Assembly (NCBI GenBank): GCA_029939835.1
Contig: JAOZSE010000005.1
Span: 1-35,669, forward strand
Origin: Pontiellaceae bacterium
Lineage (GTDB): Bacteria > Verrucomicrobiota > Kiritimatiellia > Kiritimatiellales > Tichowtungiaceae
DNA length: 35,669 nucleotides
Direction: 5' to 3'
Positions 23,715-26,205 of this stretch are shown here, in pieces. How positions within the stretch are numbered: the stretch's first letter is position 1; every line of letters begins with the position of its first letter. The position numbers and the translations under genes were made by a program. The notes under the pieces were generated by a model. The model worked only from the letters and a program-made list of their open reading frames with translations, ran no database searches and was not told the DNA's origin.

Positions 23715-23884
23715 AGATTTTTTACCACCCGCTAACGCTAGAGGAAGTCAGAGTAAGCCCGAGGGAGATTTAGAAACAGGTTTTCATATGAACTCTCTAC
23801 TCAAAATCCAGATCATTTAGTTCCTCTTCTCTGACTTGCTCGGAGGTTTCTCTAATGACCAACGGGAATGGGTGGTGAAAATCT
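23715..23884. repeat. Palindromic element, copy 1 (left of flippase gene)
   Basis: AGATTTTTTACCACCC (23715-23730) ... GGGTGGTGAAAATCT (23870-23884); internal core (23774-23818) is the reverse complement of a core in copy 2. Confidence 0.8.
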
Positions 23885-23956
23885 TAATTAAGTTCATTTG
23901 ATATTATTTGCGAAAATTCGTAATCCAATAGATATTGTGTAAAAGGAAAACTCTCT

Positions 23957-25495
23957 ATGAAAATCGGAGAACGCACCGTTAATAACGCTCTGTTTAACAC
24001 CGTCAGCGGCATGCTGCCGCTCCTGCTCAGTTTTATATTCTGGCCTTATATCGTCTCAAAACTGGGCGATTCATCCTATGGCATATATGCGCTGGTCGGT
24101 TCGGTCATCGGCTATTTTGCCCTGCTTGACCTCGGACTGGGCAATGCCGTCGTCAAATATGTCGCGGAATATGCCGGACAGCACGACGACGACCGCACAC
24201 AGGAAGTGATCGGGGCGGCCCTTTTGATTTTTATGACAGCCGGACTGCTGGGTTTGCTGATAATCCTCTCGATTGCCAGAGTACTGGTTACCACGCTGCT
24301 TAAAATCCCCCCGAACCTGATTGATACCGCCTATTATGCATTCTGCGCCGCCTCGCTTGGATTTTTCTTCACGATGCTGCTGACCCTTCTGACCTCAATC
24401 ATCAATGGCTTAAACCGTTATGATATAAGCGGTATCACCATGGCCGTCATGGGCGCGACCACCACCCTGGGCTCAGTGCTGCTGCTGCGAACAGGATTTG
24501 GCCTGCTTTCACTGGTCTGGCTGAATGTCGCAGTTCCCCTGCTGGCGACCCTCTTCTATTTTAGAATAATCCGCCGTCTGGTGCCCGGCGTTTCCCTGCG
24601 CCTGAAGTACGGCCTGTCCGTCATGAAACGTCTCTTCCACTTTGGTATGTATTCCATGCTGAGCCGCGCGACGGATGTCATCATTCGCCAGGTCGGCCCG
24701 CTCATTATCGGCGCCATTCTGGGAGTAACATCTGTCACCTACTACATCATTCCTTTTACGATCCTGAACCGGTTGACTGTTTTAATCGTTCGCATCGGTA
24801 GGGTCATTTTCCCGGCCATCAGCGAACTGCAGGGGCAGCAGCGCCACGATACCATCCGTGATCTGTACCTGACGTCCTCGCGAATGATCCTCTCTTTTGC
24901 CACGGCCCTGACGGTGTCTTTGCTGATCTTCGGCCCGAGATTTCTGCATCTCTGGATGAGCCCTGAATTCGCGGAACGTGGCAGAACAGTACTCCTCCTG
25001 ATTACGGTCGGGGTTTTTATGGATCAGAGTACTAATGTCCCCAGTTTTGTAGTCAACGGGCTGGGTAAGCCGAAATTAAGCGGATTTATGTCCGTCGCGC
25101 GCGCGGTACTATTTCTTGGGCTGATGGTGCCCGGCGCCATCTATTTCGGTATCATCGGCGTAGCCGCCGCGTTTACTTGCAGCAATGCCATTGTTTCTCC
25201 GGTTTTTATCTGGTATGTCACCTGCAAAGTGCTTGGATTGCCCTTGCGTCAGCTTTTAAAAGAGGTGTTCATACGCCCTGTGTTGGCCGGCATTGCTGTG
25301 GCCATTCCTCTGTGGTTCGTGCCTCAGGCGCGCATCGAGAACATATTCCTTCTGCTCCTCGTAATGGGCAGCGGAATGGGGCTTTACTTTGTAATCGCCC
25401 TGCTGCTCGGGGTGTACCAAAAACGCGAGCGCAGGGTTTTAATGGACTATCTGACCGGGGTGATTGCCCGCCTCCGGTTTAAAAGGAAATCGTGA
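23957..25495 (+). CDS. Wzx-like polysaccharide flippase (MATE/MVF-type oligosaccharide exporter)
   Basis: 512 aa; LFNTVSGMLPLLLSFIFWPYIVSKLGDSSYGIYALVGSVIGYFALLDLGLGNAVVKYVAEY..., ~12-14 TM segments. Confidence 0.9.
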   Translation: MKIGERTVNNALFNTVSGMLPLLLSFIFWPYIVSKLGDSSYGIYALVGSVIGYFALLDLGLGNAVVKYVAEYAGQHDDDRTQEVIGAALLIFMTAGLLGLLIILSIARVLVTTLLKIPPNLIDTAYYAFCAASLGFFFTMLLTLLTSIINGLNRYDISGITMAVMGATTTLGSVLLLRTGFGLLSLVWLNVAVPLLATLFYFRIIRRLVPGVSLRLKYGLSVMKRLFHFGMYSMLSRATDVIIRQVGPLIIGAILGVTSVTYYIIPFTILNRLTVLIVRIGRVIFPAISELQGQQRHDTIRDLYLTSSRMILSFATALTVSLLIFGPRFLHLWMSPEFAERGRTVLLLITVGVFMDQSTNVPSFVVNGLGKPKLSGFMSVARAVLFLGLMVPGAIYFGIIGVAAAFTCSNAIVSPVFIWYVTCKVLGLPLRQLLKEVFIRPVLAGIAVAIPLWFVPQARIENIFLLLLVMGSGMGLYFVIALLLGVYQKRERRVLMDYLTGVIARLRFKRKS

Positions 25496-25514
25496 AAACC
25501 CGATTGCCGTTTTA

Positions 25515-25778
25515 AGATTTTTACCACCCGCTAACGCTAGAGGGGCCCCGAGAGGCTCCGAGAGAAAAATGAACAACATCTGGTTTGAGATCTGAAGAAA
25601 TGATCTGGTTTAGAATAGAAAGTTCACATGAAAACCTGTTTTCAGTTGAGCTTTCTGTTCCAAATCAAACCCTGCCTGTTGCAGGGCTGCGGGCACGGCC
25701 CGCATCATTTCTTATGGATGTTCTCGTGACTTGCCCGGCTGTTTGCTCTAACGAGCAGCGCGAGCGGGTGGTGAAAAC
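25515..25778. repeat. Palindromic element, copy 2 (right of flippase gene)
   Basis: AGATTTTTACCACCCGCTAACGCTAGAG at 25515; right end AGCGCGAGCGGGTGGTGAAAAC is inverted relative to it; core 25598-25642 matches copy 1 in inverted orientation. Confidence 0.8.
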
Positions 25779-25821: not shown

Positions 25822-26205
25822 ATGAGAATCAGAGGCTGGGGACGAATTCAAAACAGTATACGAACGGTTCAAAACCGGCTCGGTGCCAATGCCGTTATTC
25901 TGCTTTACCACCGGGTCACCGAAGACATGCCCGATCCGCAGCGTCTGGCTGTTTCCCCCGACAATTTTTCACAGCAGATGGAGGTGCTCGCCGCAACCAC
26001 CTGCCCGGTTCCTCTCGAAGAACTGCCCGACCGGCTGAAAAAGCGAAAACGGTCTTTGTCGCCGGGATCCCGTATGACCCACCAACACCTTATTCTTATT
26101 TTTGAGAACAAGGAAAGTCCGCCCTGTGTAATTTGCTCGTGTCAGCGCAAAATTCTAATAAACGCAGGAGCTGGCGCAAATAATGCTCATTTATATGCAA
26201 AATAG
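25822..26205 (+). pseudogene. Truncated polysaccharide deacetylase (N-terminal remnant)
   Basis: GANAVILLYHRVTEDMPDPQRLAVSPDNFSQQMEVLAATTCPVPLEELPDRLKKRKRS matches the start of EPS-type polysaccharide deacetylases, but the TFDD catalytic region never follows; the ORF then continues with unrelated sequence to a stop at 26205. Confidence 0.65.

Follow-up and report, generated by a model that had tools for sequence, protein, structure and literature searches.

The window analysed here, a stretch of 35,669 nucleotides on contig JAOZSE010000005.1 of a Pontiellaceae bacterium (assembly GCA_029939835.1), carries a wzx-like flippase gene that stands between two solo palindromic elements, W1 and W2, and is followed by a truncated polysaccharide-deacetylase-like gene (Table 1). 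The similarity of this last gene to a 376-residue protein of the related genome G009 (locus L125, 9069-10199) is confined to the N-terminal region of that protein, the remainder being missing here. At the syntenic locus of G009 the wzx orthologue (67% identity) has the same orientation and abuts its neighbours, and no palindromes are present. G009 also contains an extra glycosyltransferase-like gene between the ligase gene and wzx, at the position of W1, which the window does not contain. No relatives of the flippase were found in a search of genome contigs.

Table 1. Positions of W1, W2, their parts and the adjacent genes in the window
Feature	Position	Strand	Length	Remarks
W1, solo palindromic element	23715..23884	.	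170 bp	AGATTTTTTACCACCC...GGGTGGTGAAAATCT
W1 left arm, CCCGCT type	23719..23744	+		identical to W2 left arm
W1 core	23774..23818	-		reverse complement aligns with W2 core, 40/45
W1 right arm	23847..23881	+		80% identity with W2 right arm
wzx-like flippase gene (Polysacc_synt)	23957..25495	+		between W1 and W2; outside the elements
W2, solo palindromic element	25515..25777	.	263 bp	nested interior hairpins; orientation opposite to W1
W2 left arm, CCCGCT type	25518..25543	+		direct repeat with W1 left arm
W2 core	25598..25641	+		pairwise alignment with W1 core
W2 right arm	25743..25777	+		57-nt surroundings 81-88% identical to copies on contigs C20, C96 and C54
polysaccharide-deacetylase-like gene, truncated	25822..26205	+		after W2; outside the element

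The initial annotation had described two related palindromes of opposite orientation at these sites, and both a repeat search and pairwise alignment bear this out. The near-identity it claimed for the first ~28 nt reappears as a direct match of the left arms over 26 of 26 positions (TTTTTACCACCCGCTAACGCTAGAGG, 23719-23744 and 25518-25543), and the core match that it had counted by hand at about 40 of 45 holds in a proper alignment (inverted, 40/45 or 89%; E = 9e-9 pairwise and 3.9e-9 against the whole genome). The inverted end pairs of W1 and W2 are 86% identical according to the repeat search. Ends that match directly are compatible with cores that match in inverted orientation because each element is itself a palindrome. 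Without mismatch, ACCACCCGCT is confined within the window to the ends of W1 and W2. Single-stranded W2 folds far better than its shuffled versions (z = -6.1, 0/200 shuffles as good), and the folding of W1 is weaker (z = -2.3 versus shuffles).

At least eight other contigs of the same genome (C96, C54, C136, C153, C116, C20, C61, C78) contain further copies or arms of W1 and W2, and part of the W2 interior is 71-76% identical to two sites in the genus mate G003. The end pattern ACCACCCGCTTCGCTAGAG, allowing up to two mismatches, is present in 26 of the 40 related genomes, with a peak of 50 matches in G025; the reversed pattern, used as control, gave 0-1 matches per genome and strand. The search of the host genome and its relatives that had been suggested for W1 and W2 has thus returned copies in both. 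Several dispersed palindrome copies in G025 are near-identical across about 140 bp, as expected with recent spread. This 8.7 Mb genome holds amplified near-identical compound palindromes of at least ~140 bp, some of them in tandem (L182-L187, L190, L193-L195). In the genome of the window (G000), one partial element occurs twice with the same flank (C153:29294-29344 and C78:128-178), one copy lying at a contig end; this duplication is either genuine or an artefact of assembly.

Arms of the kind found in W1 and W2 also bracket genes of the GxxExxY family (TIGR04256; PF13366, PDDEXK_3), and the partner genes considered here exceed the curated cut-off. This partner family is a new result, which the earlier reading of the sequence had missed. 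PF13366 genes occur in 37 of the 40 related genomes, many GxxExxY copies being found among these relatives, and their immediate flanks are often short inverted repeats with the outline TTTTNACCAC...GTGGTNAAAA, as in W1 and W2. To quantify this arrangement, we scored the local alignment of the sequence just upstream of each gene against the reverse complement of the sequence just downstream. With this score, 32 of 45 GxxExxY genes of the order (a set that includes a few duplicates) reached at least 15, in contrast to 2 of 45 control stretches taken about 300 nt further out; the other 13 genes are without scored arms. The same test on loci of other phyla, which were collected by scanning 84,980 species genomes, gave scores of at least 18 in 44 of 77 loci and in 0 of 70 controls. 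Arm-bracketed GxxExxY genes range over many bacterial phyla and the Methanosarcinales, and the cross-phylum set tested for arms includes the isolates Stieleria tagensis, Psychroflexus maritimus, Thioalkalivibrio sp. ALJ16 and Mariprofundus sp. EBB-1.

Many of these arms consist of approximately three tandem blocks of 8-10 bp of the CACAGAG, CACGAAG, CGCAAAG, CACTAAT and ACAGGAT types. Often one arm reaches the start codon and the other starts at the stop codon. GAGG or AAGG stands near the ATG in many arms, and this part of the arm could double as a ribosome-binding site. Homologues of GxxExxY were found on six plasmid records, and a search of 50,697 phage records returned no match. Different species share several operon junctions that hold a GxxExxY unit, namely before a ribD-like gene, before gcvPB and before a GTPase-like gene (L056, L070, L080; L066, L068; L060, L073), a pattern suggestive of insertions that have long persisted or of sites that are preferred. 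Two G009 genes (L171, L172) belong to a divergent GxxExxY clade of the GNGYLEKVYENAL type, whose C-terminal tails are longer and whose flanks gave no scored inverted repeat; this branch may be domesticated or no longer mobile.

The type of arm goes with the clade of the protein. Over 81 de-duplicated loci, arm similarity correlates with protein identity (r = 0.39, 0/2000 permutations), both within the order (r = 0.68, 0/5000 permutations) and between the order and other phyla (r = 0.26, 30/5000 permutations). The CCCGCT arms typical of W1 and W2 adjoin 5 of 5 genes of a clade with the motif SIYEKSLAHEL and 0 of 36 others (p = 1.3e-6). Since this clade was spotted in the same data as the 5/5 count, two members found later, in G027 and G012, provide the cleaner test, and both have CCCGCT arms. 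In G024, a relative with 74% identity has mixed arms. This co-variation establishes that the arms and the gene go together; joint descent as one unit would equally yield the correlation, so the pattern falls short of proving recognition of the arms by the protein.

Comparison between species revealed filled and empty orthologous sites. The junction between gatA and gatB contains a full unit in G027, G028, G014 and, with one stop, in G013 (L126, L128, L134, L153), an internally deleted unit in G022 (L130), and solo palindromes of two arm types in the genome of the window (L146) and in G010 (L147). The same junction is empty in G033, G031, G036, G034 and others (L127, L129, L133, L137). Because these states differ by species, the solo palindromes are plausibly the residue of, or a replacement for, the gene-bearing unit. 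Upstream of purH the genome of the window contains a CCCGCT element, most relatives contain none and G004 contains a partial arm. The wzx locus of G009 provides a further site free of elements. The compared filled and empty sites are too diverged for a target-site duplication to be readable between them. W1 and W2 have the characteristics of MITEs in that they are short, non-coding, dispersed in several copies and bounded by terminal inverted repeats. The clade genes with CCCGCT arms supply a partner that shares these ends, with a putative role in mobility. Dispersal, palindromy and presence or absence between species together support the MITE- or REP-like, non-autonomous nature proposed in the initial annotation.

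The GxxExxY protein itself resembles a nuclease. Eleven diverse members share the invariant residues E28, D68, E78, K80, Q92 and Y96, and this pattern (E, D, ExK, QxxxY) contains the conserved residues of PD-(D/E)XK nucleases of the RecB/Cas4 type. A structure model (pLDDT 95) has chains of Cas4, MGME1, LHK-Exo and lambda exonuclease as its top fold neighbours, with modest E-values (best 1.4e-3), and chains of the R2 retrotransposon endonuclease among its weak ones. A sequence search of the PDB returned nothing. By predicted fold and motif, GxxExxY is therefore best described as a putative PD-(D/E)XK nuclease that resembles the RecB/Cas4 type.

We propose that W1 and W2 are solo, non-coding members of a family of small units, each of which in its full form would consist of one GxxExxY gene between short inverted arms, and that the nuclease may drive their spread. 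We assign this explanation as a whole a probability of roughly 0.7. Its first part, that gene and arms form one unit of which W1 and W2 are gene-less members, is very probable. Solo palindromes could be what is left after loss of the gene from between its arms, or they could be gene-less copies with hairpin-rich interiors that spread as such. The GxxExxY nuclease would recognise its cognate arm or hairpin and cut or nick the DNA there, and the unit and its gene-less derivatives may thereby be copied into new, mostly intergenic sites. Arm- or hairpin-specific cleavage is proposed as the driver on the basis of the conserved residues, the confident model and the nuclease-like fold neighbours, and we put the odds for it at about even. 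No gene of the cognate SIYEKSLAHEL clade was found in the 87%-complete assembly of the window's own genome, and W1 and W2 are thus probably remnants, or else were copied in trans. We also looked within W2 for a remnant of a GxxExxY reading frame; the frame from 25585 is unlike the family by eye and has no Pfam match.

It is unlikely, although worth weighing, that an unrelated enzyme moves the palindromes and that GxxExxY is a passenger or a frequent target between such repeats. Palindrome number would fit this idea, as copy number shows no visible correlation with whether a genome has the cognate clade (there are 20 and 50 end patterns in G014 and G025, respectively, neither of which contains a close clade member), and so would the genes at L063, L069 and L158, which are flanked by apparently complete palindromes instead of single arms. 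Evidence against it is that the arms abut start and stop codons at many loci, that arm type goes with protein clade, and that the association of gene and arms recurs in unrelated phyla.

Two other identities are very improbable. That W1 and W2 are REP or REPIN sequences moved by a RAYT (Y1_Tnp) would agree with their palindromic, intergenic and dispersed nature and with the occurrence of Y1_Tnp genes in all 20 genomes searched, that of the window included. The matching ends anticipated for such a transposase did not materialise: the CCCGCT arm is found at 0 of 20 Y1_Tnp loci, several of which are bracketed by a different repeat. REP palindromes are 20-40 bp long and have a GTAG- or CGTC-type tag (PMC3733652), whereas W1 and W2 measure 170 and 263 bp and have TTTTNACCAC ends. 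The Y1_Tnp genes at L301, L303, L305, L308 and L310 stand between copies of an inverted repeat peculiar to them, (A)GGGGTCAG..., and these RAYTs are a separate REP-type system beside the GxxExxY one. A role of W1 and W2 in the polysaccharide operon, as terminators of transcription or as structured RNAs with a regulatory function, has similarly poor prospects. The elements do form strong intergenic hairpins and contain two weak terminator-like sub-hairpins (23828 and 25688), but the outer hairpin is preceded by T and followed by A on both strands, which is the wrong polarity for intrinsic termination. A search of Rfam with E up to 1 returned nothing for them, and this role would leave the presence and absence between species and the link to GxxExxY unexplained.

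Finally, the earlier suggestion that W1 and W2 act as recombination sites for inversion or exchange of wzx, prompted by one gene flanked by two oppositely oriented elements, is not supported and is very improbable, since G009 has wzx in the same orientation with no elements, the longest exact inverted run common to W1 and W2 is 14 bp, which is short for homologous recombination, and the same kind of element stands alone at many other sites. The bracketing of wzx looks like two independent insertions and not like a switch.

Assignment of W1 and W2 to a family of GxxExxY units invites comparison with known systems. REP/REPIN sequences and their RAYT (TnpA-REP) are likewise dispersed intergenic palindromes that stand alone or flank a single cognate gene, and gene-less copies likewise outnumber gene-bearing ones (PMC3116915, PMC8266576, PMC3733652). 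The partner differs, being a Y1 (HUH) transposase in that system and a member of a PD-(D/E)XK nuclease family here, and W1 and W2 are longer and have other arms. With MITEs they share small size, terminal inverted repeats, AT-rich insertion flanks, several copies and the lack of coding sequence. MITEs, however, derive from DNA transposons, whereas the partner of W1 and W2 is GxxExxY, and no DDE transposase turned up whose ends match theirs. Homing endonucleases and other nuclease-driven selfish genes resemble GxxExxY units in combining a small nuclease gene with recurrent sites; unlike homing endonucleases, the units occupy intergenic positions, outside conserved genes and introns, and have inverted arms of their own. 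The models of the GxxExxY family (TIGR04256; PF13366) name no function, and the arms and solo palindromes are added here. We found no report on GxxExxY mobility, arms or solo palindromes in open-access papers, which set the scope of this search.

A bolder generalisation, which we offer tentatively and at somewhat less than even odds, is that GxxExxY together with its iterated inverted arms constitutes an unrecognised, phylum-spanning minimal mobile element, in which a Cas4-like nuclease of ~125 residues, with no transposase, would read clade-specific arms or hairpins and spread itself as well as gene-less palindromes.

GxxExxY is a widespread family with no assigned function, and a unit of gene plus arms, with arms tied to protein clade, gives it a testable role as an arm-specific nuclease. 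Such a role would account for the palindromes of the CACAGAG, CACGAAG and CGCAAAG types that lie scattered through intergenic DNA in many phyla. Were the nuclease to drive their spread, this mechanism of mobility would run parallel to that of REP/RAYT with an unrelated enzyme.
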